Part shown: positions 214 to 64,000 of the stretch, one piece after another
Numbering within the stretch: the stretch's first letter is position 1
Layout of the letters: every line of letters starts with the position of its first letter
NCBI GenBank assembly: GCA_034190875.2
Contig: CM067354.1
Location: 3,219,385 to 3,283,384 of the forward strand
Direction: 5' to 3'
Source of the DNA: Urechis unicinctus
Taxonomy: Eukaryota; Annelida; Polychaeta; Xenopneusta; Urechidae
DNA: 64,000 nt
The notes under the pieces: generated by a model
What the model saw: only the letters and a program-made list of their open reading frames with translations
What the model was told of the DNA's origin: nothing
Database searches by the model: none
Position numbers and translations under genes: made by a program

Positions 214-2768
214 ATTGATTAGATCAAAGTCATCATATGCAACATGACGCACTGTATATTCTGACATTATAAAAGCAAAGTGGTATATGATATGATTTGG
301 ACGTCTCTAAAAGTAAGAAAACAACTATGCAAGTCGATAAGTCTTATCTAGAGTTGTTCCAACGAGATCCATATGATGAGCAATCTCTCGGCGCAAATAT
401 AGATATTTGTTTGTGATTCAAAGACCCAAGTAAGCAAAGATTGCTATTGTCCTTAGCAAAGGAAGCGAAGAATTGAATCCAACATACGGCTGTCATTATC
501 AAATGCTGCTTGAAGGGCTTGCAATAATGGTTGCATAACTAGAAGACAGACTACCACATCAATAATAATAAACCCATTTATACCCGTCTGTCAGTGACAG
601 ATGACACAAAGGAAATTGATAGCCTCCGTGCTGTTGCCAGCAACAATGGTATTCTTGCATGTCAGATAACCGCATCCTTTACTGAAGTCTGGTGCTATAT
701 TCAACCCAAGACGATTATTCTGTAGCTGTTACTATTCTATACTCCGTTTTTTCAATCAAGTAATAATAATGTTGGTATTGTATTTTAAAGTGCTCTTACC
801 GAGCAGAGGTGATTCCATCTGAAATAAAACCGCGCAATAATTTCCGACGCACTGCATCGGATGGATAGGTTTGGTCGTACTTAAAGATAAGCAAAGATCG
901 AGTTCATGTCCCTACCTCGTGCTGTTAAATGTCTCGATGGTGAACTTGCTTTTAAACGTTGCATGGAGCGTACATTGAAAAACAAAGCACATACATCAAG
1001 GTCGAAATTATTCCGCCATGGTTAAGATTGATGGTGATGTTGGTGATCGTAGAATACTAAACTTGGCACAAATAGTAGCCTTTATGGGTTTTTGCACGCT
1101 CGCCACTAAGATTAAATGAATAACTACTGTGTGAAAGTTGTTTTTTCTTTCGGCTTTTTATTTTTAAATAGGTGTTAGTATCTCATACGATAGGAATTTG
1201 CATATTGCGATGCTGTAAGTTGTCGGCTGTGTTTAACCCCAATCACTGTCCTGTGTAAATGAATGTTTGCATAGTCAAGCAATTTCCAGAACCGATAAAT
1301 GACACATTGATCAGACAAATATCCTAATGAAAAATAATCTGTCCTTCCTTGCGTTGCCATGGGCGTTATGTGCTTTATCAATTGACAGTCAGATGCAAGA
1401 AAATATCTCTACTTCCGCGAATGGTATTGTATGGCTGATAAAATCTACTAAAACCGAGACCTCGAAACCGCTTTCTGGGAAAATGACCTTTCGTCGCCAC
1501 CGATCAGCTCACAGAAATGAGTGGGTTGCCATGACATCTATCTTCTTAACAAGGAACTAAAGGGGTGTAACCAAGCTCTGAGAATAGGGAAACGAAAGCA
1601 TACTCCTTGTCTTAAGTGTTTATTGCAACATAATTGACTTTCTCTAGGCGCAGGTGTGTGGTTCGAAGAAGGCTTATAGAAGAAGTAACTTTGATATTCA
1701 CCTGCACCTGATATCGCATCTGTGTCATAAATCAGCTCTGTGATAAGACCAGACTTTGCCGTTTATTCCGGCTTATCTATCAACTACAGGAGTAATGAAC
1801 ATGGCATCTTTAATGGCTTATTCGAATAATGAAGTTGGGGTTCCAGGTAATATATTAACCACTATAAATCATGGAGTTGAGCGAAGCTTCAACAGATATT
1901 CGTTAGAAAACATACGCTGATGAGACTGTGTCGTTCCAAGTGAACCACTTACACAGCAGTTGGTACCAATCCTTGGATAAGGCTTACGGCGCATTCCTAA
2001 TGCATGAGTGTTTACTCATATAAAGCTTCCCTTCACCAAACTGGCTTTATACAATAACAATACAGCTATAGTTTGTATAGTTCCAAATGACCGGGCAACA
2101 TGAATATAGGTGATTTATCCCTGTAGTGTAAAATATTCAATCATATAGATAATATCAGTGGTAGTCGAATTGTTCCTAGTGGTGCAAGCACCAGACATTA
2201 AGGTCAATCATGCCCCCTTGTAAAGCCTACGGCAAACCTAGAGCTAAAAGAATATGGCCTTTCACATCGATTTGGGACGGATCTAACCAGCCAGCTGAAG
2301 GTTGATGCCGTTGTATAAAGGCATGCCATTTTGTGCAAGACTATATAATATATAATCAATGTTGTACAATAGATCAAATGCAAGCGATAGAAAAAGGGGA
2401 AAAGTAATGAACCGTTTTTATTTGCCCCGATTACCCAAAAAACTAACCAATACTATAAATAAGGGAAATAATTGCATGTTCAAGTCAAGGCATGCCATCA
2501 GTATGCAGTCACACACATCCCCAATTAGGACTTGAATCATTAAACTAGTATTTTAATATCTAGTGAATGGTAATATGAGGATAATGATATGATAAATTGC
2601 CCCATCGTAGAGGTGCATTACTGCTCACACAGGGTTATATCTACTTACTATACTTTGGAAGTAATCAATGTACCTGCATCTGAATCAGCATAATCAGCCA
2701 TGTTCAGTAAGACACCGATATATTTATCCATTGGATGTCATTTCCGCTACACCAGGATGTTATTTCAC
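214..2768 (+). repeat. giant tandem unit, block A, copy 1
   Basis: This block is collinear with 27,442-29,983 (copy 2), and from about 663 with 57,204-58,325 (copy 3). By eye the copies are roughly 85-90% identical in the best stretches, with many 1-10 base indels. Two cores are identical in all three copies: 704-729 and 806-833. No intact gene is present. One frame from about 310 to 690 carries only four stops in C1 and stays in register with copy 2, so a decayed exon is possible. However, other frames of the block look about as well preserved, so nucleotide homology alone may explain this. Confidence 0.88.
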
Positions 2769-3610
2769 GTTTCAGGTTTAGGTTCCACATGAAAGCAAAT
2801 ATCCTAAAGCTCTTGGTGCTTGGGCACGGAACAGTCTCTTCATCACAAAAATGGTCAAATGGTTTAGAATAGGCGGGACTATGAACATGTCGTTATGTTA
2901 TGGTAATTCAAAACAGATAGCTCTATTGTTTGGAACGAAATGACAAACGCATCTTATGCTATTGAAATGCGTGCCCTTATATGGATCGTCGTGTTATGTT
3001 TCAAGTCATACTATCGACTGTAAACACTATTCTCCCCTTCCGCGCAGTGGTTATTATTTCGCCTGTGCTATGTACGTATTATTCCCATTCTATAATGTTT
3101 CTCAATTTTGACAGAAGCAATAGCCTCTTGCGTAGGAACAACGCCCTACACCGGTTATTTCCCTCGTTCAGGTTCTTCCATCATTGCCTGCGTATAAGCG
3201 ATTTATCAATCGACAAGTCACAACGCTGGCGTATGTATGGCGTTTACATTTACGATTTACGATTGCTATGTACGCTTCTTTTTCTGGCAATACGGAGCTC
3301 CAAATATTCGACATTTGATACTGAAAATAACTATCCCCAAATTTGCCATGTTGGTTTTAATCTACACCATAATTTAAGGAGACAATGGTTGTCATTGTTT
3401 TCGCTTAATGTCGTTCATCAATCCATTTTAAAAACCCTTTATGGCAAATGTTTCGCGAAAACGATATTAGCTAACAGACTGGGAAATGACCCCTCTTTAG
3501 GTTGATCGGATTTATCGCAGGTCACGCTCACAGATAAGATTACCTAGACATTCACAGATCACGAGTTTTCTCGTTAGTATATTCTCTCTCGACTGCAATC
3601 ACGCACAGCG
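2620..3610 (+). repeat. giant tandem unit, block A2, copy 1
   Basis: This matches 58,320-59,755 in copy 3. Copy 2 leaves the alignment at about 29,983, so it lacks most of the block. Copy 3 carries extra sequence in the middle, about 59,180-59,410. Shared landmarks are the stretch around 2,940-3,110 (58,560-58,740) and the end near 3,580 (59,735). Confidence 0.82.
2981..3505 (+). other. unassigned 174-codon open frame
   Basis: This is the longest ATG-initiated open frame outside simple repeats. The product is rich in Leu, Ser, Arg and His, with no signal peptide, domain or motif that I recognise. The homologous DNA in copy 3 (58,619 onward) has a stop after seven codons and later changes frame, so the frame is not conserved. 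With roughly 60% A+T, an ORF of this length is only mildly unusual in 64 kb. It is most likely spurious. Confidence 0.1.
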
Positions 3611-3689
3611 CACCACTGAAATATGGTGCTTGTCTCAGAAAAGCACTTTACACAATGCTTATTCAGTAGTGCCGCAATGCCAAAACAAA

Positions 3690-4300
3690 ATCCATATGGG
3701 GGTAAGATAAATGCGGATAGAGAAACTATGTATTTCAATCATTGTCAATGCCAAATTATTAACATCATAGTTTACGGTAGATTTTTTCAATACTGCTAAT
3801 ACCAAACATTAATCGGTTAAAGGGAAGTTACGATGTATGTATGGTAGAAGATGATCATAGTTAGCCTATTTCACAATTAACGCGCGAGCCAGATTTCCGC
3901 ATCCGGTGAATATGTCTGTTATCTCTCTGAGTTTTACAACAGCGAACAGCGAAATTGTCCCTGATTATTGTACTTAGCCCGGATGGGAAGAATTGCTATG
4001 GATGAACAGTGTCCTCCGCGTTTAGTGCAAAAAGCTTCCTCGCTGATGATATATCACTCAATGGCGTAAGGCCGAAAAATGGAACTGGTATCTATATAAA
4101 GACCATAAATCGTCCCGGTGCAATCAGTTTTGCCGCCATTTGCGAATAATTCATTAAAATTTATAAATCTACTTTAAATTTGTCGAGATTAAATTTATTA
4201 AATGCTTGCTGAATGTAGTATGGAATGACGCAACTCGCAAGGCGAGAGAAATTGCCTTAGTGTATAGCCCTATGTGCATGAGTATCTCTTTACTTTATCG
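3690..4300 (+). repeat. giant tandem unit, block B, copy 1
   Basis: This matches 60,435-60,980 in copy 3 over most of its length. Its first bases (3,699-3,725) match 59,945-59,980 instead, so copy 3 has about 460 extra bases at that point. Copy 2 retains only the end, 30,046-30,110 against about 4,230-4,300. Confidence 0.82.
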
Positions 4301-7300
4301 TCTGTTGTGGTATAAAAGTGTATTACATCTTCACGAATCATGCTACTTGCTCCGATGCTCGAGTACGCACGACAGAGCGTGCATAATCCCACGCGGAATC
4401 GTCAGTATACGGCTAACATAGGTCCCCATGTGTCATCGCACTATGGATTAGCAAAGATAGCGAGCTGCGAGGTCTGTCATTAATCAATGGTACGTGAATG
4501 ACATTCATCTTCATTTAGTTTTCCTTGTGAGTGACATATACAAGCTTCTTTACATTTCATTTGAAGGGGAAATGAATGAGTGTGCCTTCGAGAATGCCGC
4601 CTCTGCAAACACGGGAAACATAATGTCGCGTCTGATACCAAATCTTATATAAGCTTCAATGCAGCAGCCAAAATATTTAACTGGCAGATATTTGTCGAGC
4701 ACCCACACACGCAGGTATTTAAAATCCAACTGAGCTGGATATTATCTTTGATAAGAGCTGAACAGAATTTCCATCACATCATTATGCCTCGTCTGCTCGT
4801 TTTCCTTGATTAAGATATGTATATGTAAACGTCGAATGCACCATTGCATCATTAATATGTTTTGTAAAGAATGACTGCAGCTCATACTTGCAATAGCACC
4901 GCACAGTATGAGAATGAAAAGAGCCTTGGGCTATGTCGTCTGTGTCCCCTCATCATAATCGAACGTTCAGTAATAACAGCTCGAAACAGATAGCTCTTCG
5001 GAAGCGATAGCTCTGTTAACATACGCTCTGTAAGTTCCACTACTCTGGAAGCTAATCAATATCTAAATATAGCCTGACAGGTGGGTTAATTATGCAATTA
5101 CTGTGTCAAATGAAGGGAAGAGAAACTTGATTGAAGTGGCGCTGGGATTAAGTGCAGAAGTACTGAGTGTAAGAACGGATACATGGTTCGGCTTCCGTCA
5201 TGAAATACAATACCCAAATCATGAAGAATTGATGAGACGCTTAGAATTTACATAGATTTGCGTTAAGTTGCAAGGAAAAGAGATATTGGAAGACGATCAA
5301 AGAGTAGAACTGAACACATAGTCTACATGGAGAGGCTTTATTCAGCATGAAAACAGTAGAAGATATAAATGAATGACCAGCGACCAAAATTAAACGTTTA
5401 GCAAAGCCCGGAATGAACCAAGCAGAATGGTTGGAATGCGATAATTCTGCAAGGTTGTCAGCTGTATATCTCATCCATGGTATCGCAGCAAAAAGCAGGT
5501 ATGTGTGTGGCTGCATATATTGAGTGAATATAATACGTAGACTCAATGATTAATGAGCGATGGGCGCTTTGCCGAACATAACGCCCTTCATGCCAGTACA
5601 CAATACACACGAGGAGCTTATCAATATTGGACGATATAGCAATACTCTCTCACACAAGCAGGGGACAAAAAGAATGCCATATTCCCTTAATGATCAAAGG
5701 ATGGTAGTTAACATTAACACTTTTAGGACACTAGCGATATATGGAGTACGCTATGGTCAGCACTTGTTCAATGCAATAGACTTGAAAGCCCTGGTCCACT
5801 GTCATAAGAAAATAAAGTTTTCTGATTATAGCCCGTAAACAACAGTTTAGCTTTCACTAGCTCTTATCGTATTTTAATGGTGTTGCAAAACAGGTGGTCC
5901 TGCGGTGCTTATCAGCTGCGTTAGCCATGTCACCAAGCATTACTACACGCTCTCACATATTTATGAAATATTACAAATATTTGAAAATCATAAGCTTCGG
6001 AAGGTTCCGATATCTGCATTCTTTCCTCTTTTGTAATCTCTACTATACAAGTGGCGTGTGATTTGGAATATGGTCACACTCAATTTATTCAACTGTTATT
6101 TATTCACAAGTTCTATTTCGGCGCTGAGAGGACGAACGTCTTTGCTCGCTCTGTTTTTCTGCTCGGAATACCAATTGGTAAAACGATGAATTACCCCCAA
6201 TTCAGAGCGACAGAAGCAATGCATCGAGTTCAATTAATAGGAGCTTATTGGGGCTCTACGTTGTCACATGATATCAGTTGCCCAAGATTTTTCATTAATG
6301 TAAAAATCAACCTGATTGTAAAAATTTATGATTAACGATTATTGTAGAAATTGTTCATATGATTTCCAATGATGGCCTCACATCCTCATTGAACAATCAG
6401 TACCTCACTATATGAGGGATTGCAACCAACCGTTCTTTCACTTTGATGAAACCCTTTCTTGTTTGCAAATAAAATAATGCGCTGTAGCTTTGATATAAAA
6501 ATATTCCTGGGGCATATGTTGAGTGTGTTAATATAATGATCACATGCAAAGTCTTCATCTGACATATTGGATCAGGCAGCTTCTTTGAAATTAAACAATG
6601 CATGATGCCATGCATTGGCACGCTATCCAGTCTAATGCGATCTGATTATATTTAATTTATGAGAAATATATTCAAAATATGTTTATTATATATGGCTCAC
6701 ATCCCCTAAGCAATCTTGCGTACATTAGCTCTAAAGCTCAATGACGATGCGAAATGAGATATACTAGGGCTTGTCCAATATACTCAAAGCCAAGGCCGAT
6801 GTCACTTACATTAGAAATAATCATCCTATCAACTTTGATTGAGGCAGGATGTGAGACTATGCACACCAGTAGTGTTTTATACTTCGGATACATACCTAGA
6901 GGTTGCTGAGGCAGTCTACAACAATTATACAATTAACTGCATCAATGTTGGAAAATGCATTTTGAAATACGACAAACTAAAGAACACTTAATTTGCAAGA
7001 CATACCTATATGTGCTTAAGCTGCATAGTGCAGTATGACTTCTGCTAGCATCTCAAATGCGTTGTATTCTTACTAAAACGCTGTTGTGAGGTGCCGGGTT
7101 TTTTGGGAAATGTTAGCAGTCGAGTATTGTTATTGTAGATAGTAAAAGTGGCAGAAACCATTTCTGTCTATTCTCGTATCAATTTATAGAATTCATCCAT
7201 AGCAATGTTATTTGAAAGAATATCACGGAAACTTGGTGTATAAAATGATACTAATCAGGTATTCGTCAGTTAATGAGTACAAGAGAGCAAACAAAATGAA

Positions 7301-7649
7301 CTGTAAATGCAGCGTTAGATGAATTGAGCGATGATCACTACGTTGCAGGATGTAAAGACGATAATTAATGCAATATTATTAATATTGGCTGCGAATCGTG
7401 TATATTAGCAGAAACGGGGTACAATTAAGTTTATGCAAATATGACATAGAATGGAAGTGCTGCCTTATTTATAATATACCCACAAAAACCGAGTGGTTTG
7501 TATCATGGTCTAAGGCAAATGTATGTCGCCTTAAGGAGGGCAACAGAGGCTAGGTCAATATAGAGAAGATCGAGTAGTACCTGCGTAACGATAGCACCTG
7601 AGGCGCAAGACGCCAAATTTGTCACATATTAACAAGCAGCGACTTTTGG
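4301..7649. other. copy-1-only segment, no gene seen
   Basis: This 3.3 kb has no clear partner at the corresponding place in copy 2 (30.4-38.9 kb) or copy 3. Open frames are short and unconvincing. Apart from the faint older repeat at 5,310-5,440, I see no element ends, tandem repeats or RNA genes. It is either an insertion private to this unit or sequence lost from the others. Confidence 0.45.
5310..5440 (+). repeat. older internal repeat (family also at 12,070 and 41,540)
   Basis: About 130 bases resemble 12,070-12,240 and 41,540-41,700. Shared landmarks, in order, are a segment around an actag/atag-tcnacatg motif, then ACAGTAGAAG, then ATGACCAG, then GAATGAACCAAGCAG. Identity is lower than between the giant units. 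A weaker match to the first part is at about 50,640-50,685. This points to an earlier duplication inside the unit. Confidence 0.6.
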
Positions 7650-8995
7650 TGTTAAAAGAAAATACAAGAGTAATATATATTGAAATTCAATTGAAATCAG
7701 GGGCGATTCACAAGCAATAATGAATATGGCATTGTGTGCTGATTGACCTATCAGTGTAGTGCTTCTTTCGTTGGGTCTTGATAGGGGCTTTTTCTCTGGG
7801 AGTGTCAGTGAATGCCCAATAAACTGTTGAATGCTCGTCAGTTGGCTCATGTTACAATTAGAGCAAGTACTATCCGACGGTGACTCCATGAATTAGGGCC
7901 ACATCACCGAGTCTATGTTTTACATAGCAATCACTTATCAGTCGCCACTAAAGCAAGTAAAGAAACCTACATTGTATCGTGTTGATATTTCTTGCGCTGA
8001 TCGATTCACTGGTTATCCATTAGCATCCGACACTTTTTGCGCTATTAACTGTAGAAATAAAGTGATAACTGGGGCCTGGTGGCACGGTTAACAACGGACA
8101 AGGTTATTTTAATTGAGATGAATGATTCCCCGCTCTTAATTGCCACTGCCTGCTTGGGAAAAACTCATTTTCCTCACCGAGATGCAACCTGGTACCAAGG
8201 CAAATTTACTAATGGGATTCCTTGGTAACGTGATACATAAGAGGGCAGGACATTTATCAATGTCGTCTCGCTGAATAATAGCAATCTGGCGTTCTTCTTT
8301 GTGCAGCATACAAGTGTGATGTACATACAGTGCGTTCTGGTGGGCTATTGGTGTTTTCTCATTGAATGTAGTGGACATAAGAAAGACCTGGTGTCATTCA
8401 CATTTGATCCACAGCTATTTGCTGGTAGGCGCGCCATCTGATAGTCGAATGGCCATATCCACTCGTGTAACAATGCATACCCAGCACGTGGCTTATTTAA
8501 TTGCTTCCCCAAGTGCTAGTTTACACAAGTATAAACGTATTGCATGTTAGTCAAGGATATCAGGAACCTTGACGGGAGTGAGAATGCGTATAATTCCTGA
8601 TGATCGCGCTCCGTAGGGTCATATGGTACACGTGTTATATAATCGTGCTGAGCCAGTAGCTTTTACTATGCTTTTCATCAACATCGACTCTCGCTGTCTC
8701 CATTTGGTGTGTATCGTCGGGGTTGTGTTGCTGAGGTAATCTCGACGGTTTATTTTACCGGAAAACATGCATAGGCTCGTGCAGATTGAATGGAATCCTT
8801 ACGAGTGAGATGATTAATTCCACACGCTCAGCTGTACTCGGCGTAATCTACATGTATGCTTGATTGAAGTTTTGAATATGTCCAACTTAGATATATGAAG
8901 CAATGAATAAATTGAATTCAATCTGTCATATAAAAGCATTGCCGTCAATTATTCAGGACATGTGCAATCGCTCGGTCCTTACCGGCCAGCCAGTA
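7650..8995 (+). repeat. giant tandem unit, block E, copy 1
   Basis: This is collinear with 38,917-40,262. A sampled stretch around 8,370-8,545 (39,645-39,820) is about 83% identical by eye. Changes are spread over all codon positions, so I see no sign of protein constraint despite short overlapping open frames. At the right end copy 2 runs straight into block F, whereas copy 1 carries 1.7 kb of extra sequence. Confidence 0.88.
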
Positions 8996-10724
8996 GTTCG
9001 TGAGCCCTATGCTGTTGGTGTGGTAGTGGCGCGATGATCTAGATATATGAATATTGTCAGAACCGGGTATCCGAAGTGAAACCGATTTTACAGGGACGAA
9101 TTGAAATTATACTTGAACGTATCACGAACGAGTTAACTGATCTTACCTGGCTAAGAAACGACAAAATGGTTCGTCCACCTCACAGACAAACTCACAACAA
9201 ACGCCATAAAGATTACAGCCACAGCCGGCAACGTGAATGCCTTGATAGATGATTGTGGAAAACGGGCGACAGAGAAATATATTAACATACATTAAGACGA
9301 CGCAGAAGCTTCCTACCTGGATCAATACTCGCGTTCCATACTCTTCATAGGTTGAGGCTAATTTCACAAAACACCTAGGTCGATTCATGTATCATATTGC
9401 GAAATGATATATGCGAGAAGAACATTAGCTTCAGACGAGAAACGATTGGATCCATGCATGTCCTAAACGACATGTAAAGCGCTAATTAATACATCCGTTT
9501 GAGTTGCCCTAACATACAGTTTGTTGCTATAGAAGTTTTGAACATGGCGCCGTAGTGTGTTGCAGGGGAATACTCGCTCCGACCAAATTTCTCTGAACGA
9601 TAAGATAAATGTGCTAACTGTTTTTATGCATTGCATACTTCTGAAACAAAGCGAAGTATCCATAATACATATTAGACCATATAATACAGACCATGCACAT
9701 GGGCTACCCTGCTTTGTCTTATCTCGTTAGGAGTGTATATTTTCCAGCTACACCCAGTAAGCAATGTGGCGACGAAATGTCATATACCACACATGTGTAT
9801 GCAGCACTGTATGTTGCAATTTGCACATATGTTGTGGCGATGTTGTCGATAGCATAGCGCATCCTGAGCTATATCGATACTCATTATAGCATATTTGCTC
9901 TTTTATGTCACAAGTGATAATAATTGTGATCGAGCCCCTCGTTTTTACATTCAGCATATAATATTTAACAGTGCTCATCAAAGAAATATATCATCCTTAG
10001 TCATGAACGAACATTGGAGTCAACTGTCTTCTTTTGATCACCCCAGAAGGCTCTAAGATTATTTTTAACTAGCTGTATACGAGATGTCATCTCGTTACCT
10101 TCACATCCTCGCATGGCGTTAATGAGACATTCTTGAAAATTCTACAAATAGACGTTACGCGTGAAGTAGCAGTTAATGAATAAATACAACTTTACATTAA
10201 ACTGCTAACGCTTAACGCTAAGCATATAAGAGTTAACTCCGTTGGCTGCGCTTTTCCATATATATCTGCTCGAGATCGACCGATCATTCTGGCAGTTTAA
10301 GGCATTGGTAGACTTAATGACATGTCAGTTTAGGCTTAAACTGCTAACATTTATGCCCTGATAGCCAAATAATAGTGAACGGCCATTCGGTAAAACTGTA
10401 GGGGACAAGAGCTGTAATGCAAGAAACTCCCAGGTGCCCCTAGAGTTATGCATTCAATTGGGAATGCAACAGTAATGTGATAATCGCGTTTGGTTATAGT
10501 CAACTACTGGTTGTAATCAACCAAGAGGCAATCAACTAGATTGAAATTAATTAGAACGGTTCTGACACACCAACTATTGTACGCTCGTCGTAGCTAAGGA
10601 GTAAAATAAACCTACATATAGTGGCTTGCATTCTACTAAGCTTTGGAACAATAGTAAGTGTTGTAGATTTTCATCTACATAGAAGTTAGTTAAGTATGAT
10701 TGAAACGCATTTAGTGTCATCTGG
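8996..10724. other. 1.7-kb segment present between blocks E and F only in copy 1
   Basis: In copy 2, E and F are joined at about 40,262, so this is a copy-1 insertion or a copy-2 deletion. No clear terminal repeats or target duplication are visible. It includes a minus-strand frame at 9,143-9,388 with splice-donor-like sequences. It also has a direct repeat TTAAACTGCTAAC at about 10,196 and 10,337. Confidence 0.6.
9143..9388 (-). other. unassigned 81-codon frame with splice-donor-like ends
   Basis: The minus-strand frame starts with ATG at 9,388. Two good 5' splice-site matches lie in it: CCAG|GTAGGA, with the exon edge at 9,317, and CCAG|GTAAGA, with the edge at 9,147. An AG after a pyrimidine-rich run at 9,241-9,242 would give a 76-base intron. 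Unspliced, the C-terminal half is rich in Cys; spliced, it becomes a hydrophobic, membrane-like stretch. No domain is recognised and no second copy exists to test it. Confidence 0.15.
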
Positions 10725-11139
10725 AAAATGACTGGACTAGTTTACTTAGGGATAAAAAAGAAGCTTTAACATCACTGCTTGGACATTACAATGGTTCCAA
10801 CCTGCTGTAGAAGAGTAGACGTGTATTATACTTCAGGCTTCAAAAATGGTGCTAATTCGAGAAACGCGTGAGTTGAACTCAGCAGGGCGTCCTAAGTCAT
10901 GCCTGATGCTCGACAGTTATAGTACACACTGCTTGTTGATTCAGGTCAACTAATTAGAAAACATACATTTGCATGTTCAATATTGTGATTCGAACAAATA
11001 CAGCCTAGCAGAGGTGTTACATGTGATCATCCTATGTCCTAGCAAAGCTGATGAGATGCAGGGTTTCACTGGTACACTCATCATCTTCATTTTGTTCTTT
11101 TCAGTCCTTGACCAGCGGTGAAAAATGCAAGTAGATGGT

Positions 11140-11329
11140 GATGGTGACTGCTGCTGTTTTCACTGGTATGTCGCGCTGATGGTGACTGCTGCTGTTTCCA
11201 CTGGTATGTCGCGCTGATGGTGACTGCTGCTGTTTCCACTGGTATGTCGCGCTGATGGTGACTGCTGCTGTTTCCACTGGTATGTCGCGCTGATGGTGAC
11301 TGCTGCTGTTTACACTGGTATGTCGCGCT
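11140..11329 (+). repeat. minisatellite, five 38-bp units
   Basis: Five tandem units start at 11,140, 11,178, 11,216, 11,254 and 11,292. Each runs from GATGGTGACTGCTGCTG to TATGTCGCGCT. The three middle units are identical; the first and last each differ at one base. The homologous site in copy 2 (40,699-40,790) has one unit-like start and end separated by about 50 unrelated bases, so the array expanded after the giant duplication. Confidence 0.95.
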
Positions 11330-12069
11330 GCTTATTTATGATGAAACGTTAAACTTGGTAGACTAAACCTAACACTCGAAGCTCTGAATGGATGAAGTGA
11401 AAGCGACAATAGCTGAACAACGCAACAAAGCTGTTACGCGACCTGCTTGCTGCCTTTTTGTTTACTTTAGTAAAGAAAGTTAGACGCCTGATTTCTATGC
11501 GGGAAACATGATAGGTCTGGGTGTATTTGTCTTTCACAATGTCACGAATTGGCTAAAGAGATCCTTACAATCAACAGGACAAACTTAAAAACAAGATAAA
11601 ATCTGAAAGAAATCAACGAAGCTTCCTCTCATACCAGATGCATGGATCATTAACAGCAGGGACCACGTGGGCCGGTCGATTACCTGCGTACCGTGTTTCT
11701 TTTGTAACTAGCAGTTTGTGATTCGTTTTGCTTTGGTTTGTTCTTTTGGTTAGGATGTTTCATGGGCATTCTAGCGGCCGGTGAACTATACGTCCAACGT
11801 TCTCAGTTATGGTGCAATTAGAAATTCATTGAAGCATTTCTAGTTCAAACCGCCCCGTAGCATGTGCCATCATGTTGTTTGGCAATTCTCCAGTATACTT
11901 GATAGATCAACGCAAAGTGTTAGCATGATAATAAATTGCTTGATGCACAGACATTTGCATTGGCTGGATTACAATGTACTGCTGAAAGGGCAGAGAAATC
12001 TGGCCAATTAAAAGGTTGGAATGGCAAGCTAAGTAGCTAACGTGGTCTATGCAACTAGGGCACAACAGA

Positions 12070-12240
12070 CAACCTAGTCAACATGAGGCGGCTTTATACA
12101 GCAACTAGAAAAAGAGATTAACGCTGTATGACACGTCAACCACGTCCCTCGCTACGAATTAACACAGTAGAAGAAATAAATGCATGACCAGTGACCCGCA
12201 TTAACCTTTATAGAAAGGCCGAAATGAACCAAGCAGGAAA
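12070..12240 (+). repeat. older internal repeat, second member
   Basis: This lies inside block F and is matched closely by 41,540-41,700 in copy 2. More faintly it is matched by 5,310-5,440 in copy 1, outside block F. It links two different parts of the same giant unit. Confidence 0.6.
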
Positions 12241-17580: not shown

Positions 17581-17584
17581 TGAC

Positions 17585-17605: not shown

Positions 17606-17661
<56 letters not shown>

Positions 17662-51239: not shown

Positions 51240-51431
51240 TGCACGCGCCACAATAAAAAAATCATCTAGATTCGGCAAATGTAATAAAGCGTCCACACTT
51301 CGGTTGTGCTAGTTCAGTGGTGCTACCTTTGATCTACCAGCTCATTACGTGGTTGATTATGTTCGTTGTGCTCACGTTATGCCATAGTTTTACAATTATG
51401 GGTATAGAACAGCGGTCTCTAATGCGCCTAG

Positions 51432-51547: not shown

Positions 51548-51999
51548 GACCGGTTCCTACATCATTAGTCGATTATAGGTTGTCATGTACCCAGGGGTAA
51601 GTCGATAAGACGGATGAAGATTGTAATTCCTTTTAATCCCACTTCGCTAATTGGCATAGGCCTTTGATGCTACTGAATAAAATATTATAGTGTCGTTAAC
51701 GGGTGCATCATAAACCTAAACACCCTCAACAAATGGATATCATACAGCAACAGTAATCACGACTGCACGCATCAGATGACCACATATCTTTAACGCCGTC
51801 CCACCTGGTAATGGATGAACAGTCTTACGAGCTGTTGTTGATATAATTGTAGCGTCGTCTAGTGACGGATGTCTTTTTTATGTAACTTTATATAATTTCA
51901 ATAACCCCGGGCAGCTTGACAGAGTGAACCTTTTTGGGGAGCTTTAAAACTCTTTAATGAGAGATTGAGGATGATAAACGGCACGGACACTGTGAGAGG

Positions 52000-52192
52000 C
52001 ATTTTCTACCCCAGACCGGGCAAAATATAAAGTTTGCATTTATTTAATATTATACTTATTATCATAGCTTCTTAAAGTCTATTGTGCGGCGTGGCATGGC
52101 AATAGAAAGCACTGCGATACGACACTGCGTTCCCGCCTACAACCATTGCAATGACGTCCGCCCAGCATTCCCATGTGATTTGTTTCCTCAAG
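52000..52192. other. about 190-base insertion private to copy 2
   Basis: Flanking sequence joins without it in copy 1 at about 20,555-20,580. It begins near AGACCGGGCAAAATATAAAG, which resembles the CCGGGCAAAAC ends near the fold-back at 43,950, so it may be another piece of that element family. No target duplication was identified. Confidence 0.5.
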
Positions 52193-53625
52193 GTAGCGCC
52201 ACCTTATGATGGTTGTGTATTATAGTTAGGGAAGCGATCACCACAAAGCCACTTGAAGTAACCCCTCCTACACACAGCCAACCAAACGATGATTATTTAT
52301 AGGGGACTGCAGTTTCTATGAATACTCTATGTTTCAATATTCTACTCCTTCGAAAGACTCTCACATATATGTGTTGATGTATTATAGCAGGCAATAATAA
52401 ATAAATCTATTGCTGGTCAAGTCATGTCCTTTAGGCCAAGTCAGTAACAGCTGTCTGGTCCTATTTTAAACCAAACCTTTGTACCAACTCACCCAATTTT
52501 CTTTGAAGATTGGTGGAGAACCCTCTGCGACAGTGGCACATTTGATTATGCTGCGATAAACGAGTCGGATGCCATTTGAGGCTTTTGTGAAGCCATGTAA
52601 ATGACTGGGATAGCGATATAAATGTTTTCAGTTGAACTAATATTGGTATCACCTCAAATCCAATTGCAGTTTTCTTAAGCTTCAATCTTCTATGGATCAT
52701 CGAAGAACTGATATACCCTCTGTGCAATCATTTCCAGAACCATGGTCATACGTCTCTGTAAGAATAACAGTGCAACTGACAAACCATATATGTAGTGAAG
52801 AAATATTTTGTTAGGTTGAACATTTGTTTCCGAGGTATGATCAACCATTAATTCAAAACATTAGTTTGTTTCCCAAAGACATTATCATTCGATTGCTTTC
52901 TAAAGCCAAGGGGTTCAAAATGAAGACATAAATTCCATTCGTGACAAATCTTTCTGTAAGAAATGTTGGAAAAAGAAATCCATTCCGCTGATTATTATCG
53001 AGGCATTGTGCAACAGAACAGGTTGCAAACGAGAAATATGGTTTGCCTGTGGCTTTTTCACCGCATTTGATGAGCAAAATGTTATGGTGCACCATTTGTC
53101 GAGTTATCGGTACTAACAATGAAAAGTGCATCGGAATCGGTTTAGAAAGGCGGCAATTTCAGTAAATGAGAGTGATTCGATCTCGTTAAGCACTGCCATA
53201 AAGCTGTGCTATTAATATATTTCTGAAAAAGTGTAGTTAGTGTCCAAAGCAAAATGTGGCATCAAAGGCAGCGTGTTGTTGAAAATCAGTCGTCACGATG
53301 CGGACACTATCTGAATCATAGCACGCAATTGGTGTTTCGAATAGCATACTGACAGTAATATTGTTCTGCTATTATCTTTCAATATTCCAACTATTCATGT
53401 GTGAGGAACGATTTATACATGCATGACACCTAAGTTGGTAAAACTGAGTTTAAATATACATCAATGTCAATCGCGGGGAATGTTACTTTTGTCTAATCGA
53501 TCTATTTACTTAGCTTTCAACGACCCGAACAATTCATTCGACTGAGTAATCAAAACGCATGAGTCACGATCATGGTTAATTGGCAATGTAAACCTTAATC
53601 TGAGAGCAATATGAGCCGCATTATT

Positions 53626-55004
53626 TAAAAATTGTTTCTAAGGCGATGAATATAATAAGTACTTCTGAATTCTATAGACTGATAATTATCACTATTAGTC
53701 AACGATTACCTTCTATTAGTTCCTGTTGGTATCAGTTTGTAAGGCTTAATATTCGATGGGGCATATGATTGTGAAACCATCGCATTAAACATCGATTTGG
53801 ACAAGCAATTCTTGGCGGGCGTTCTTGATTTGGCCGGAGGTGATATCAGGATTTGTCCAAATGCCTGTTTTGCATAACCAATAAGATCTGCTTAGCGGTT
53901 AAAAGATGGTAAGAAGGGCATATAGCAATATTGCAGCAAGATATAGCATTATTGCGTACGGATCGCTAGCATCAGTCTCCTTGCATTTATTCTGCATGGA
54001 TTTGCATATATTACCATCACCACAACCACCGATCACAAGCGTAGAGTCTGAAATTCTAGCACTAAGTTTTGTACTATATCACATTGCCGACCCCGGTAAG
54101 CAAATCTACATTTGGAAGCATGGAGATGAAGTATTAATCACTAGCTTACAGTGTCATTCTATACTCGTTTGGTATAAATGAAGGTGCAACGCCTGTGTAG
54201 GGGCATTGTTAGAACGATAAAGCCTATTAATAAATAAAAATAGGAGACTAAATAGACTATGCGAGCGGCTTCAGTAATGTTTGAAACTATGACTTTCAGA
54301 TTAATATGCAGTAGGTATTGTATACAACTGCAATATATGGTCTATAAGTATCACATATTATATCTTTTTGAAAGCTAGGTCATTTTCAGACAAATATCTT
54401 TCCGGTCTAACAAAGAGGTTGTATGAACTTAATGCGATACACAACTGGATAGTGCATATTTTATGGTCTTTGTTGTGTTGTAACCAAGGTAATATTGAAT
54501 GATCTACTTAGACCAAGTTTCGTTTATATGTGTGATAAGATGATTGATAAAGCTCTCAAACCGAGATAAGGTGGTTCTCTAGGCGAGATAAAGCTCTCAA
54601 ACCGAGATAAGATGGTTCTAGGCGAGAGTTACAAATTATTCCAAAGGCAGAATGTACGTTATGGCACAAAGCATTGAACCGCATTTTGGTTGATAAAATC
54701 TGAAAACAAATTGATTACCTTTCGGAATATAGGCACCATGCAAGACTCAACGCAGTAACCTCTACTTTGTGATTTATGATTGCGCCAGCTTCTGTAAAGC
54801 CATCTAAATATGTATAACACTCCAACACAATCCAAATGATGTATCATATAAGACGACTTGGCTTAGTCTTGCAAAGCGATGTAGTGCAAATATAAACGTT
54901 TTTGTGATAACCCATATCGCATGTCATGGTGATAGCAGACCCTTTTCCATACTCACTTCAGTAATCGCGTCCGCTTTTTTAATCGATTTGTCGGGCATCT
55001 TAAA
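53626..55004. other. copy-2-only segment between blocks J and K
   Basis: About 1.4 kb in place of the 3.2 kb of copy 1. It contains a 91-codon ATG frame at 53,906-54,181 with a hydrophobic N-terminal half and no known domain. It also holds the 41/39-bp tandem repeat at 54,546. No RNA gene is seen. Confidence 0.45.
54546..54625 (+). repeat. two-unit tandem repeat (41 and 39 bp)
   Basis: Unit 1 is 54,546-54,586 and unit 2 is 54,587-54,625. Both start GATAAAGCTCTCAAACCGAG and end AGGCGA. Unit 2 has a two-base deletion and one substitution. Confidence 0.92.
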
Positions 55005-56635
55005 TTACCGTCGTCTGTATTGGCAAAGTTGACAAGTGGTTGGACAGGTCGAGGCCAAGTCGACAGATGTATTGAATGCATCCAAGCTGTCAAGCACATC
55101 AGCGAGTACACAACCAGCGACGTCAATGATTACACATTGGATAAGGCAAACAGTCAACGTTTAACGATTGATTCTGAAGTAGTTAGTTATTATCAAAGTA
55201 AATTAAATGTTGGGTATGTCTTACAGGTAAATCAGCACAGAAATGGAATCAGAAAGCTCTAGATCCTTACCTCGCCTTGACACGCATAAGTAATCACTTG
55301 CTCCAGCCGATGTGGTCCTTGAAATGCAATGCCATTTTGTATCGCTTGTCATTTAAGTTCCCATACCTCAACATTAACAGCCATAGCTGCTGTGCAATTC
55401 ATATGCTCATATCACGAGATAGTAGCCACAGCGTAAAAAGAAATGTTAAGCGATCAATAAATAGATGTTAAGAGTGAATAAGTAGGCATGTTGATGAATG
55501 AAATTCTTGAAAATAGCCTGTTATATTGTACAACGAAGCACATTCTAGACTTCTAACTTGCCTTAGAACTATGCGATGGATGTTGTGATATGTGTAGTGC
55601 AACGTGGTAGAGTGGTAGAGTCGTAAGATACTTTGTCTAATTGCAAGCCATATCAATTCATATAGCTACATCTTAAGAACCTTTGTTGGTGAAGGTTATT
55701 TCTACGATCTTGATTCATCGAAACCTGTGGTAAAGAAGATTGCCATTTCAATGTTGGGTACTCCTACCGTTTAAGCGACACAACTCGTCTTGACGTCGTC
55801 GTCAGCCTATTTGTATAGCTCGTCAGGGACTTCGACCAAACATCTGCTGTCATATATCATCTCAGTTTTTCAATGCTATTCGGCAAATTATTGCCACGTA
55901 TCACAATGATATGAATCGAACGCATGAAAGCAGCGCCCAGTTCGGTGTTTGCACGCATGGTTCAAACGGCAGAACGATTTTAAGTAAGTGTTGCCACCTA
56001 CTTTTATGCATCAATTATGTGTATTGAATTAAAATTAGATTTTGTAAACATGAAATATCAAGAAAACATCATGAAATGTCTTATGCGTTAATGATAACGT
56101 CAGAATTCATCAATCGGGATTACAGCGGTTAGTACGGTTACTGACCTGTTATTCTTTGGTGATATGTGCTATTCTATACAATACCAATACTTTGGGTTTA
56201 TTAATAGCGCACTCGACGTGCTGCAACGTTGTAATTAAGGGGCATATTGTAGCAACCATATTAGCATAAATGAACTGGCAACAATGATTTACTACTTTTG
56301 AAGCAATTGAGCAGATGTATGGTGACGTGCGATTGCCAAAAAGGAAGTAGACATTGCGTGCCTGATACCTGCAAACAGTTATTTATTCGGGATATTAATT
56401 TCAATGCAGGCGATTTTCCATTTAAAAGGTATTATTTAGGATTTCGCTTCGTGACCAGAGGACAATGTATCGCAGTGTAAATAACTGTACATAAACTGGG
56501 ACCCATAGATAGTGCTTTCATGGTAAATTCATGGTTTGGGCAATGAATCTAAGCAATTAAGCTAAATAATTAATGAATCATTCGTTTTGCACCATTAGAT
56601 AGCGGTTTAATGCTGCTGGCGCAGCGTAACAAACA
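55005..56635 (+). repeat. giant tandem unit, block K, copy 2
   Basis: This matches 25,900-27,441. An 80-codon open frame at 55,020-55,262 is frameshifted and interrupted in copy 1 and has no ATG start, so it is not taken as a gene. The right end, GCTGGCGCAGCGTAAC, is the same as at the copy-1/copy-2 junction. Confidence 0.88.
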
Positions 56636-57203: not shown

Positions 57204-58325
57204 ATCGTCAGATAACCACATCCTGTACTGAAGTCTGGTGCTAAATTCGACCCAAGACGATTATTCTGTAGCTGTAACTATTGTATACTCTGATTTTTCA
57301 ATCAAGGATTGAAAATGTTGGCATTGTATTGTAAAGTGCTCTTACCGAGTGGAGGTGATTCCATCTGAAATAAAACCGCGGCAATAATTTCCGACGCACT
57401 GCATCGGATGGGATAGGTTTAGTCGTACTTAAAGATAAGCCAAGAAAGAGTTCATGTCTCTACCTGGTGTTGTTAAATGTCTCCTTGGTGAACTTGCTTT
57501 TTAACGTTGCAAGCAACGTACATTAAAATACAGAGCTTATAGGTCGAAATGATTCCGCCATGGTTAAGATTAATGGTGATTTTGGTAATCGTGGAATACC
57601 AAACTTGGCACAAACAGTTGCCCTTAAAGGGTTTTGCACACTCACCACTAAGATTGAATGAATAACTCCGTTGTGAAAGTTGTTTTTAGCTTTTGGATTT
57701 TAATTTTCGAATATGTGTTAGAATCTCATAAGATAGGAATTTGTATATTGCGATTCTGTACGTTGTCGGTTTTTTTTACTACTGTCATGTGTGAATGAAT
57801 GTTTGAATGGTCAAGTGATACAATGTTCTGACGAAAATTCTGTTGAAACATAATTTGTCTTTCCGTGCGTTTCTATAGGCTTTCTGTGTTTTATCGTTTG
57901 ATAGTCAGATGCAAGAAAATATCTCTAGTTACGCGAATAGTACGGCAGATAAAAATCTTCTAAAATCGAGACCTCGGACCTTTCGACACTACCGACCTGC
58001 TCACAGAAATGAGTGGGTTGCAATGACATCTATCTTCCTAACAAGGAACTAAAGGGGTGTAACCAAGCGCCAAGAATAGGGAAACAAAAGCATACACCTT
58101 GTCTTAAGTGTTTATTGCAACATTATTGTCTTTCTCGACACGCAGGTGTATGTTTCGACGAAGGCTTAAAACTCTGATCTTCATCTGCGCCAGATTTCGC
58201 CTCTGTGTCATAAATCATCCATGTGATAAGATCAGACTTTGCCGTTTATACCGGCTTATATATCACCTACAACAGTGTTAGCATCATAAAGGGCTTATTA
58301 GAATAATGGTGTTGGGGTTCCACAC
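57204..58325 (+). repeat. giant tandem unit, block A, copy 3
   Basis: This matches 663-1,850 of copy 1 and 27,880-29,040 of copy 2. It then jumps to the A2 sequence at a point equivalent to about 2,625, so it has lost about 780 bases relative to copy 1. Confidence 0.88.
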
Positions 58326-59755
58326 AGGGTAATATCTATGCTGTGGAATGTAGCAATGTACCTGCATCATGTTATTTCCGCTACATCAGGATGTCATTTC
58401 ACGTTTCAAAGTATACGCTCTACATAAAAGAAGGTAATCTAAAGCTATTGGTGCTTGGGCATGGAAAAGACTCTCCATCACAAGAATGGTTAAATGGTTA
58501 ACAGTAGGCGACACTATGAACATGTCGTTATGTTATGCAGATTCAAAGCAGATAGCTCTCTGGTTTGGAACGAAATGAAAAACGCATCTGATGCTATTGA
58601 AATGCGTGTCCTTATATGGATCGCCGTGTTATGTTTTAAGTCACAGTATCGAATGCAAGCACTATCCTCCCCTTCAGCGCAGTGGTCATTATTTCGCCTG
58701 TGCAATGTACGTATTATTCCCATTCTATAATGTTGCTCAGTTTTGAAGGAAGCAATTGCCTATCACGCTGGAACAATGAATTATGCCAGTTATCTCCCTC
58801 GCCCCAGTCGTATGCAACCATACAACCCATCCTTAACCATGACTGTAGTCACTCGTTTATATTTGGTTCTTCCAACATTGCCTGCGTATAAGCGATTTAT
58901 CAATCAACAAGTCACAACGCTGGCGCATGTATGGCGTTGACATAGGTCTTATATACGGAACGCATAATCCATGGTAAGTCTAATCTAAATGATTGCAACG
59001 TACGCTTCTTGTACTGGCAAGACGGAGCTCCCAATATTCGACGTTTGATACTGAAAATAACTATCCCCCACTTGTCATGCTGGTTTTCATCTGCACCATA
59101 ATTTAAGGAGAAAATGGTAATTGTTTTCATTTCGATTCATTATCCATTTTAAGCATTCAAACGTTTTGTGAAGCTGAAGCAAGGAAATGACCTCTGAAGG
59201 CGGATACTAGGTCATGTTCGAGTAGCACATTCAATAAGATTACTCAAACCGTGTATAATTCACAGATGTTAGTGCTAACATAGTGCATCAGAAGATGGCT
59301 CCTCTCAGAGCACTTACCCAACCCTAATGGTGGTCGCTTATTGTCACGGTGACTGTGAGATCAATACCGCTATAATGTGGTTTCCATTTGTCAATGTTTG
59401 CGTTGGCTGTAATTTAAAAACCCTTTTAGGGTATATTCGGCTAAGAACTATCTACGACACTTCTGTAAGGTGTTTCCTGCACCAAACCTTTTTGCCAACG
59501 ATATTAGCTAGCAGACTGGTGAACATAGGTTTATCTCCAGTGTACGACTCGTTGATCCAGTTTCATGTGGCACATATCGCTGGGATTAACCAATGCATGC
59601 GATATTTAACACACTCCAAGTGATCTACAGATCAGCTAAACGACCTCTTGGCGGATAATCAACTAGAATATTGGAACGATTCACCACTCACGATTTTCTC
59701 CCTCTGTTATTCTATTTATATTCCTCTCTCGACTACAATCACGCACACACTCTAA
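58320..59755 (+). repeat. giant tandem unit, block A2, copy 3
   Basis: This matches 2,620-3,610 with extra sequence. A 98-codon ATG frame at 59,327-59,623 shares part of its frame with the 174-codon frame of copy 1 around the TTAAAAACCCTTT landmark. The rest of that frame is not conserved, so I do not call a gene. Confidence 0.82.
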
Positions 59756-60434
59756 CACATACTGTCTAAATAAACTCTTATTCCAAACAACCCCAAGCTC
59801 AGCAAGTTGTTTTTATGCGTGAATTTTGTTGGATCGGAAAATTGTATCTAATATAAAATGGTTAACTATCTATACGTATTTAGTAGTCAACGCCGCAGCC
59901 TGGTCGCCGTCGCTGTAGATAAACCAAGTATTAACAGTGAATATGGGGGTAGATTGGGAGATAAATGCGGATAAGAGGCAAACCGAATTATATCTTGGGC
60001 CATTTCAATGCTTATCTTTGTGTATATAGTTCAGTTGTTTTAAATCGAATACTATTGGCTTGCATATCATGCTTAATTGATATTTTTGCAAAATAATCTA
60101 TGACGTATTGTTGCTTATTGAGGTACTTAATGGTGCATAATACGTTTGCCAGCTCGCATTCAAGGTCTACTCGCGTGCCACATCATATATGTATAGCTGG
60201 TTCGTTGCAAGGAATCTCCCTACAAAATATCCGCCATTATTCACAATGGACTTCACTATCTGTACTCTCAGCCGAGGCAGAAAATCCGACAACAACCTCA
60301 AGCAACTGTTAGTAAACGGTTTCTTAAAAAGATATTTCATTGAGAAGAGTGCTGTGATGTCTCCGAACCCTAGAACACGACGATCGTCTATTAACAAGCG
60401 ACTATATGAGAGCATTATAGCCAAAACATTTTTA
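59756..60434. other. mostly copy-3-specific segment before block B
   Basis: This contains a short match to copy 1 at 59,945-59,980 and one to copy 2 at 60,116-60,180. Otherwise it is private. An ATG frame at 60,189-60,440 runs into block B. Confidence 0.5.
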
Positions 60435-60440
60435 TATTAG
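60189..60440 (+). other. unassigned 83-codon ATG frame, basic C-terminus
   Basis: The first half is mixed. From about residue 28 the product is rich in Lys, Arg and Ser, ending with a possible amphipathic helix. No domain is recognised and there is no second copy. The opposite strand is also open over most of this stretch (60,167-60,424), which argues for a locally stop-poor sequence rather than a gene. Confidence 0.15.
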
Positions 60441-60980
60441 GTGTAGAGAACTATGTATTTTAATCATTGTCAATGCCAGATTAAATTATTATAGTTTACG
60501 GTTGATTTTTTAATACTGCTAATACCAAACATAAATCGGTTAATAGGAAGTTAAGATGTATGAATGGTAGGAGATGATCATTGCCTATTTCACAATTAAC
60601 GCACGAGCTAGATTTCCGTAGCCAGTAAATATATCCGTTATCGCTCTGAGTTTTGCAACAACGAACAGTGAAATTGTCCCTCATTATTGTACTTAGCCCG
60701 GATGGGACGAATTGCTGTGGATGAACAGTGTCCTCCGCGTTTAGTCGAAAAAGCTACCTTGCTGATGATATATCCCTCAATGGCAAAAGGCCCTCCTTGA
60801 GGTCATACAAGATAACTTGTATCTTTATAAAGACCATAAAACGTTCCGGTGCAATCAGTTTTGCCGCCATTTGAGCAGAGAATAATTAATTAAAACTTTT
60901 AAATCTAATTTAAACGCGCCGGGATTCCATTTATTAAATGCTTGCTACATATAGCATGGAATGACGCAACTCGCAACACA
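60435..60980 (+). repeat. giant tandem unit, block B, copy 3
   Basis: This matches about 3,725-4,240 of copy 1. At its right end it switches within a few bases to block C at ACACATGCGAAGAG, a direct B-C junction not found in copy 1 or 2. Confidence 0.82.
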
Positions 60981-61169
60981 TGCGAAGAGAGCGTTAGACC
61001 ATTATGCTGTAGCACCGTGTGATAAAATGTTCAGACTAAACGATGGTATGCTGCAATGCTGTCGCTATACTTAAATACCTGATGGGAATTGTATTGTACG
61101 ATCAAAGGCAATGTATATTCAAGTTGTAATTAAAGGTACAAAAATGCATTGTCAAATTTATTGCACCGA

Positions 61170-61646
61170 ATGTCCGGCACGACTGGTTGTTTAACAGTTA
61201 TTAATGAATTAAAATTCCCAAAACACTTGTTATTTATTGTAGTGTGTGATACGCTGCGCTTTCTTGTCTATTTTCTGATACACGCAACAAGGTGTCTAAT
61301 TTTAAAATTGGTGATTCCACACATTATCCACCATTGTGCAACTGGAGATTCTCAAAGATCTTTACTTTATGTTTGTCTAATGGTAAAGAACATCAGAGCA
61401 TGGTCAGCTTTGCCAGGTGTTCACAACACTCTATTGAGTACGATAATATCCAGTAGTTTTTTTACAAAGCTCCATCCCATTTGCTACTACAGTAGATACA
61501 TAACACAAAACAATGATTTTTGCACATATGATATCCCGCCCCTCTGTGGTGCATCACAGAGGGGCGGGTGGGACAAGATTACCGGCGGCACGTCACCTTC
61601 TTCACTGTGGTCACCTTCTTTTGTTATTAATATCATCACTGCTTAA
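61170..61646 (+). other. unassigned 158-codon ATG frame
   Basis: The predicted product has one hydrophobic, possibly membrane-spanning stretch near residues 20-50, and no recognised domain. In copy 2 the same register contains at least two in-frame stops and a one-base indel. Substitutions between the copies are spread over all three codon positions. The frame also runs through the new hairpin at 61,535. It is most likely a chance open frame. Confidence 0.12.
61535..61568. repeat. perfect G+C-rich 14-bp hairpin
   Basis: CCCGCCCCTCTGTG, a loop GTGCAT, and CACAGAGGGGCGGG. Copy 2 (about 32,675-32,712) has the loop and a right-arm-like sequence but no matching left arm. Confidence 0.92.
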
Positions 61647-62262
61647 CAAATACACTGGGGTATATCCCGGAAAGTCCAAATTATATGCATATTTTCTGCC
61701 GCTCGCTTCAAGTTGGCGACATTCAATACTCACTCTGCGCACAAATTAATTAGTTAACTTTATGTGGCATAATTTGCGTAATTTTTTCCAGATAATATCT
61801 GTTGCCCACATCTGTTTTTTCTCCCACACAATAAGAACAAAGTTTTCGAAACATGAAAGCCTTATACTAATAATTAAATGTTGCCTTACACTTATGCCCA
61901 AGGTATGCCATTGTATCACAATCAAAAATGGTTCATTCCATAACAGGGCCCTGACACATTGACATCCAAACATTGAGGCTCTTTAATGAATTTCATTCAC
62001 AATTACTCAACCAATTAATGTATCCATATTGCAAGCAAATAATATGCTTTTGCATATCAAAATCACACATGCAAGTTTCGACGATTGCCAAAGATCAAAC
62101 ACCATTATGAGCAACGAAACACAGATGTTGATAAGTGCCATACTATGTTTGATGTTTTCATTTAAAAAATACAAATACTGCAATGTGGAAGATGCAAATA
62201 TATCCTTGCCTGCAACATCTATCGCAAATAGTTTCAATACCATAAAAATCAAGCTTTCTGTG

Positions 62263-62534
62263 CCAATCTGCAAAACACTCCCATCAGATAAAATGAAATT
62301 GTGCGCGAGAAGTCCAATTGCCTTTCAAATGCAATGAATTTCATGTCGTGCATATCGATACCGATGGAAGGCATCATCAACTTTTGTCGACAAATGAAAT
62401 GCAATTTCAGTCCGAAAGATTAAAGTCACCCTGGCGTCTGCGTTCATTTAATTTTTGGCGTTGACAATTGGCATATTGCATGATCACTACCGAGTGTAAT
62501 GTTTCATGGGATCATTCATTAAGAGCAACGTTTT
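62263..62534. other. spacer between blocks C and D in copy 3
   Basis: About 270 bases without a recognised partner or feature. Confidence 0.4.
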
Positions 62535-62765
62535 ACACGTGGAGGGGAAATAGGTCATATGTATTGCAACTAAAACACTTGCATTAAATTAAAAACAACA
62601 CAGCAAACTGCACTATGTCTGAGTAACTGGTCTATAAAGCTGTTAAGTGGCCATAACATTATTTCGGAAGTGTGTCCTATCATTCTTCTCTAATTTTATT
62701 AACTCATAACGACCGCCGTGATATAAAACAGCATTTTCGCCATCAATAGGGGCGAGCACGCTTGA
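62535..62765 (+). repeat. giant tandem unit, block D, copy 3
   Basis: This matches 30,140-30,375 of copy 2 and lies after block C here. Confidence 0.8.
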
Positions 62766-63199
62766 TCAATATATACGCTTTCATAGGCCAGCTATTATCA
62801 ACGTCATCTGAAGCAGATTTGATCAGTTTTGAATCAGACTAATTTCATCCCCAACAGACGCATCGGAAGGTTCTGTTAAATAACAACTTTTCGGCCACTC
62901 GGGATATAAAAATTAAACTAATTTAGGCAAATGAATTTATCCCTTTTCACTAGTACAAGATTCAATTTTATCCCATTTATATGTACCTTTAGTACCTTTT
63001 GAAGTAAATGTTGCCAACGTGTCAGTTTGCAGGTAAAATAGTCACGGTGTGACAGGTACAGCTTTTTGAGGTTAACACCAAAACCCATAACACATAACAT
63101 CAGCCCGTTTGATCTCCAATTGAAGCTCTTGGTAATCGTACGTCAGCCCGAATGACCCCGAGAGCCCAATTAGCCAATCACAACTCACCCATATCTTTC
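62766..63199. other. private segment before LINE 3' end
   Basis: About 430 bases; no partner is seen in copies 1 or 2. The last 90 bases could be more decayed LINE coding sequence, but I cannot read a motif in them. Confidence 0.4.
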
Positions 63200-63435
63200 A
63201 CTGTAAATACTGCTGCCTGGTGCCAGATCGTTTAGTAATGCCGCGCCACGTTTGTGGAACGCACTTCCTGTCGCACTTCCTGTCGTCGGTTGAATACGCT
63301 TGATGCAAACTCAACACATTTCTTTTTCGCCATGGCTATAACAATTAACTGCCTGTTCTAGCGCCTTTGACAAGGATTATTTCATGGAAACAGGTGCTAT
63401 AAAAATACAATATATGTTATGTTATGTTATCAGGC
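63200..63435 (+). mobile_element. 3' end of a CR1/L2-type LINE
   Basis: From 63,213 the frame reads LPGARSFSNAAPRLWNALP, the conserved C-terminal block of CR1/L2/Jockey-type reverse-transcriptase ORFs. A 12-bp tandem duplication (63,261-63,272 and 63,273-63,284) follows, then a stop at 63,291. The 3' UTR shows GCGCCTTTGA at 63,361 and GTGCTATAAAAATAC at 63,393, the usual tail signature of this group. It ends in a TATGT repeat at about 63,411-63,430. The copy is strongly 5'-truncated, as such insertions usually are. Confidence 0.8.
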
Positions 63436-64000
63436 ACACAAACAGAGACACAGAGAAAATATACGAGAAAGTCAGGAAGCACCACGAAAGGGCTACAATA
63501 AAGGTCAATAGAATTTGCATTCACATGGACACCAACCCTCAGATACCTACAATGACGTCGCGACCTAATAATAATTGTCTCTCTTAACCATCCCCATGTT
63601 TATACTTCTGATAATTTCGAGCATTATTCATGTGCAAATAGTATACTCCACTACGATCACTGCGTATTTGTTATGTACAATAGCTTCAATATGAATGGCA
63701 GTAATAACCCATTTAATATAACAGCTCGGTTAATAGCAGCGACTTTGATAAATATTCATTGGTAATGAAACGTGTAAACATTGTTTAAACATGATCATAC
63801 AGCTGTTCATTTGCCCATCTGTAACATTGTCCTTATTTTTGTAAATTACATAGCCAGCATATGATGAGTCTCAGAGGAAATCAAGATAAGAGAGGCTTAG
63901 TTAGCCGCCTGGAGATTCATCAATTATTTATAAGGTTGCATCCTAGCTAATATTAGCTTTGCCTTAATAACACTGATGAAATTTCATTTTTGGAATTGTT
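63436..64000. other. right-edge sequence after the LINE
   Basis: About 560 bases with no recognised partner. A 67-codon frame begins inside the LINE tail at 63,384, so it is not credible as a gene. Confidence 0.4.

Follow-up and report, generated by a model that had tools for sequence, protein, structure and literature searches.

How has a stretch of 64,000 nucleotides from the annelid Urechis unicinctus (GenBank assembly GCA_034190875.2, contig CM067354.1, positions 3,219,385 to 3,283,384 of the forward strand; hereafter the window) come to carry a unit of 27–30 kb repeated head to tail, with 64 kb of DNA of about 39% G+C that holds no recognizable gene? The original prediction offered a decayed gene cluster, a macrosatellite or a non-coding locus kept in copies. 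The repeat is probably a tandem segmental duplication, old by now and decaying neutrally, of DNA poor in genes. Long AT and TC microsatellites, the base composition and the lack of a recognizable gene over 64 kb fit a eukaryotic source.

Self-comparison of the window reveals two copies of the unit (U1 and U2) and part of a third (U3) arranged head to tail, with starts at approximately 214, approximately 27,446 and at 57,207. This comparison gave 50 matches at E<1e-4, a count that takes in small and inverted pairs, while the reversed window, used as a control, gave a single match at E<1; the blocks are therefore not due to chance. They lie on the same strand and are collinear, offset by 27.2 to 32.3 kb, which is the recurrence that had been predicted. 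The third start had been placed at 57,204. At this start U3 57207–58335 aligns to U1 661–1853, and U3 57207–58322 to U2 27882–29042. The left edge of U1 at about 214 reflects weak homology upstream of 228, traced by eye in the printed sequence at the edges. Positions 1–227 show no similarity to the ends of U1 and U2 (of 200 base shuffles, 15% and 17% reach such a score), while a positive control, 27183–27431 against the end of U2, scored above all 200 shuffles. Since these bases resemble neither unit end, the array seems to start inside this window. The 577 bases preceding U3 (56630–57206) likewise show no similarity to 228–660, 34.5% of 200 shuffles scoring as high.

The copies have diverged nearly evenly. 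In 21 alignments of blocks, which total 18,686 columns with pairs involving the third copy included and gaps left out, identity ranges from 80.0 to 89.4% per block with a mean of 86.1%, in good agreement with the 80–90% estimated by eye. The mean difference is 13.9% with a ratio of transitions to transversions of 0.92. As had also been noted, the indels are mostly not multiples of three: 71 of 306 gaps have such lengths, a count in which events in the block present in all three copies can appear more than once. Identity is nearly uniform along the blocks, its variance among 364 windows of 50 bases being 0.0032, slightly above the 0.0024 of a binomial. In the three-copy block, 74 sites set U3 apart, 73 U1 and 68 U2 (1,093 ungapped columns), and in 7 columns all three copies differ. 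The tree of this block is a star, which suggests that the duplications were close in time, or that the copies stayed alike through exchange which later ended. By pair of copies, the distances are 0.142 (U1–U2), 0.125 (U1–U3) and 0.131 (U2–U3).

Divergence by substitution is accompanied by extensive differences in content. Gaps within blocks included, the shared fraction amounts to 14,428 of 27,221 bases in U1 and 14,779 of 29,251 in U2; in the remainder the copies differ through the loss or gain of large pieces and through a small number of rearrangements. The bases of U3 comprise 1,140 common to both other copies, 1,327 found in U1 only, 1,485 found in U2 only and 2,842 found in neither. Because parts of U3 occur only in U1 or only in U2, each copy has probably lost different pieces of a larger ancestral unit. 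Where U2 lacks most of the stretch shared by U1 and U3 (Table 1), its match stops at 29983 and picks up at 30045; the block common to U2 and U3 has a 125 base inverted match in U1, at 22673–22797. The blocks were predicted to recur in mostly the same order. They do form a collinear chain, although it involves only about half of each unit and the order is broken in places. U1 18363–18875 matches U2 45150–45670, upstream of the match to 14119–16730; this block, which adjoins an AT microsatellite, occupies different places in U1 and U2. A second break is the match of 30158–30371 to 62536–62759. U2 in addition contains an internal diverged duplicate (37349–38901 versus 44664–47334). No clear target-site duplication, as expected at the edges of a transposon, was seen by eye at the printed edges of some of the large gaps. 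Two further similarities were observed within the copies. Stretches near the two ends of the unit show a faint similarity of 59–67% in both copies (535–782, 24629–24943, 27786–28059 and 56326–56486), perhaps marking an older repeat within the unit. In U1 two 73-base sequences at 17106–17178 and 18263–18335 are 97% alike in inverted orientation; since the former belongs to a block common to U2, the latter looks like a recent inverted duplication.

Could the window display the diverged left edge of a macrosatellite array whose units still exchange sequence and are more alike further to the right? The units are tandem, of several kilobases (27–30 kb) and in the same orientation, and the left edge lies within the window. 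Sites specific to one copy are also weakly clustered (runs test P 0.044), the longest run of sites from the same copy being not unusual (P 0.41); this is too weak for us to claim gene conversion. Against this explanation, U2 and U3 resemble each other no more than either resembles U1, and the units are not homogenized to near identity. SST1 units are 97–100% alike within an array, and 92–93% between chromosomes 4 and 19, according to figures given in PMC3018141; the present copies are only about 86% alike over half of their length, and for this reason the data do not support a macrosatellite as the term is usually understood. We regard a living array as unlikely.

Repeat units of this size commonly originate as tandem gene clusters, and the genes of such a cluster might have been lost before or soon after duplication. 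Outside masked microsatellites the window has 482 stop-to-stop ORFs of 45 amino acids or more, of which 300 were scanned against Pfam, the shortest 182 being left out, so that short exons could be missed. At E values up to 0.1 the two sets of 150 ORFs matched 18 and 20 families, each in a single ORF, and the best values (0.00046 in one set, 0.00058 in the other) are weak. In none of the units was a gene or pseudogene recognized among these 300 of 482 ORFs. There are 77 stop-to-stop ORFs of at least 80 amino acids, compared with 51.7 (41–66) in first-order Markov sequences, and 18 of them touch three microsatellite tracts, leaving 59. Among 214 shared stop-free segments of at least 25 codons, taken from the 21 block alignments, a synonymous excess was found at p<0.01 in 4 and at p<0.05 in 12, which is about the number expected by chance. 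Over all segments the mean pS of 0.158 slightly exceeds the mean pN of 0.122, which is what a former cluster might leave behind; the segments overlap across frames and strands, making this excess hard to weigh, and they may conceivably hold a faint trace of coding. The prediction that the unit has almost no coding capacity is consistent with all four lines of evidence: ORF number outside microsatellites, substitution pattern, gap lengths and Pfam matches show nothing clear. With neither a Pfam match of weight among the 300 ORFs scanned nor a clear gene trace in the substitutions, a decayed gene cluster appears distinctly improbable.

Known RNAs are no better represented. ARAGORN found no tRNA in the window, and Rfam gave no match at the gathering score. 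At E values up to 1 there were 16 Rfam matches, 15 of them inside microsatellites; the best of these look-alikes was mir-3149, which at E 8.6e-06 scores 46.2 bits where its gathering score is 100. The only one elsewhere is a weak match to REN-SRE at 28094 (E 0.27; 23.1 bits against 41). An array of structured non-coding RNAs, in which every unit would carry a tRNA or a member of a known family, was thus not seen in these scans.

These results also bear on the proposal that selection keeps the copies of a non-coding locus, for example a long non-coding RNA or regulatory or boundary elements, in which short cores would be under constraint while the sequence around them decays. U1 and U2 share eight identical runs of at least 40 bases where 2.84 were expected when alignment columns were shuffled around fixed gaps (a count of eight was reached in 13 of 2000 shuffles), and five of at least 50 bases against 0.55 expected (1 of 2000). 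The longest, of 68 bases, was reached in 55 of 2000 shuffles. Runs of 60 (15750–15809) and 68 bases (15878–15945) lie close together in the block at 14119..16730; two such long runs there occurred in 1 of 2000 shuffles, for a block chosen post hoc from 15. Within the window this pair is covered by U1 and U2 only. Where the third copy can be consulted it does not keep the longest runs: in the three-copy block it differs at 4 positions in the 57 base run shared by U1 and U2, and at 6 positions in each of two 41 base runs shared by U2 and U3, that is, at the usual rate or above. This block also has two shorter stretches, 26 and 28 columns long, in which U1, U2 and U3 are identical. The idea of a locus kept in copies therefore retains a modest, weak excess of identical runs, but not in the third copy where this could be checked, and the Rfam scan likewise argues against it; we judge it quite unlikely. 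The runs are better accounted for by chance, by rates that vary along the sequence or by exchange in patches than by selection. Still bolder, and very improbable in our estimation, is a giant gene-free tandem unit with a function of its own, whose short cores (e.g. 15750–15945) would be held by selection or ongoing exchange while half of the surrounding sequence was lost. Were such cores indeed kept, the locus would be a large functional repeat that lacks genes, which would be a surprise; nothing here shows that.

An assembly artefact joining separate loci or alleles is scarcely credible, since the copies differ at 12.5–14.2% of sites, allelic differences are usually far below this, and by eye the joins do not fall at simple repeats in the printed sequence.

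Several observations weigh against an old, neutrally decaying duplication. The term array rests on about 2.2 copies, because the window, all 64 kb of it, contains two complete copies and only the first 6.8 kb or so of U3. The unfiltered count of long ORFs stands above the simulated range until those in microsatellites are set aside, the mean synonymous difference is slightly in excess, and the long runs identical between U1 and U2 outnumber those in the shuffled alignments. Duplication and decay suffice to explain what is seen, with the modest surplus of identical runs as a possible exception.

The history of the locus might be reconstructed as follows. A gene-free segment would have undergone two or more tandem duplications, for which unequal exchange is the simplest cause, either within a short time or with homogenization that later ceased. 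The copies would then have accumulated point mutations independently, to about 6–7% per copy as judged from the three-copy block, together with many small indels. Large deletions presumably removed different parts from each copy, and microsatellite growth and a few local rearrangements would account for further differences. The locus as it stands is a clear example of how a large tandem duplication decays: the substitution distance is modest, yet about half of each copy is unshared.

Table 1. Features of the window, with positions counted from its first base
Feature	Position	Strand	Counterpart or basis
Copy 1 (U1)	214..27431	+	aligned blocks to U2 span 228/27449 to 27431/56629
Copy 2 (U2)	27446..56630	+	adjoins U1 within about 17 bases
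Copy 3 (U3)	57207..64000	+	cut by the window end; without the first ~430 bases of the unit
Block in all three copies	661..1853	+	three-way alignment, 1220 columns
U1/U3 stretch, mostly gone from U2	2735..4260	+	2735-3431 = U3 58369-59152; 3718-4260 = U3 60444-60997
Shared block	7619..9003	+	U2 38887-40268; 86.7% over 1347 columns
Two shared blocks	11307..13927	+	U2 40767-42225 and 42566-43687; 84.4% each
Large shared block	14119..16730	+	U2 45748-48386; 86.9% over 2405 columns
Shared block	21434..22422	+	U2 52266-53255; 85.8%
Unit end, two shared blocks	25889..27431	+	U2 55000-56108 and 56252-56629; 86.9% and 87.0%
U2/U3 block, absent from its place in U1	32117..33436	+	U3 60974-62258
Eight runs of at least 40 bases	685-741, 8660-8705, 15750-15809, 15878-15945, 16629-16679, 18732-18783, 21650-21692, 21698-21739		identical in U1 and U2
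(TA)n microsatellite, U1	17585..17858	.	repeat scan
(AT)n then degenerate (TC)n tract, U2	35928..37278	.	repeat scan
(AT)n microsatellite, U2	44308..44614	.	repeat scan

A number of smaller elements were also observed. The degenerate (TC)n tract of U2 extends for about 1 kb (36226–37250) beside its AT tract and displays strong strand asymmetry, with a GC skew of -0.50 at 36001–38000. Minisatellites are found at 11139–11330 (38-base unit, 5.1 copies, 98% matches) and at 51428–51552 (29-base unit, 4.3 copies, 96%). A near-perfect hairpin at 43715–43945 in U2, present once in the window, has 67-base arms that are 95.5% complementary and an RNA fold of -109.1 kcal/mol (z -15.7). By eye it has no clear target-site duplication; in form it is like a miniature inverted-repeat transposable element (MITE) or a young small-RNA hairpin. 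In U3 a G+C-rich palindrome with the stem CCCGCCCCTCTGTG is located at 61535–61568, and the aligned site in U2 does not form a palindrome.

Searches for relatives were made in prokaryotic and viral collections, which carry little weight for a eukaryotic window: exact patterns (four in viral_contigs, two in genome_contigs) gave no matches, and neither did blastn of 228–8227 against phages or of 14000–17500 against plasmids.

Compared with known systems, the locus shares with the human macrosatellites D4Z4, DXZ4, SST1 and RS447 a unit of kilobase size repeated head to tail. The unit of D4Z4 measures 3.3 kb and that of DXZ4 3 kb, and arrays of RS447, SST1 and D4Z4 are described as having from 8 to more than 100 units. 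PMC3018141 gives units of about 2.4–4.7 kb for SST1 and RS447, and arrays of 20–103 units for RS447 and 14–154 for SST1. Here, in contrast, the unit is 27–30 kb long, about 2.2 copies are present in the window, and they are about 86% alike over half their length. With tandem gene clusters it has in common a repeat unit of tens of kilobases, but no gene was detected in any copy. As in a tandem segmental duplication, adjacent copies in the same orientation are homologous and collinear over far more than 1 kb. For the human track of segmental duplications, PMC3018141 states a threshold of 90% over 1 kb; with a mean identity of 86.1% this unit falls below it, and we therefore call the duplication old, or decayed, rather than a segmental duplication by the human standard. 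Its closest likeness is to the old tandem segmental duplications of eukaryotes, although it has no recognizable gene. Such duplications are large, direct and collinear and decay by substitution and deletion, as the copies described here appear to have done.

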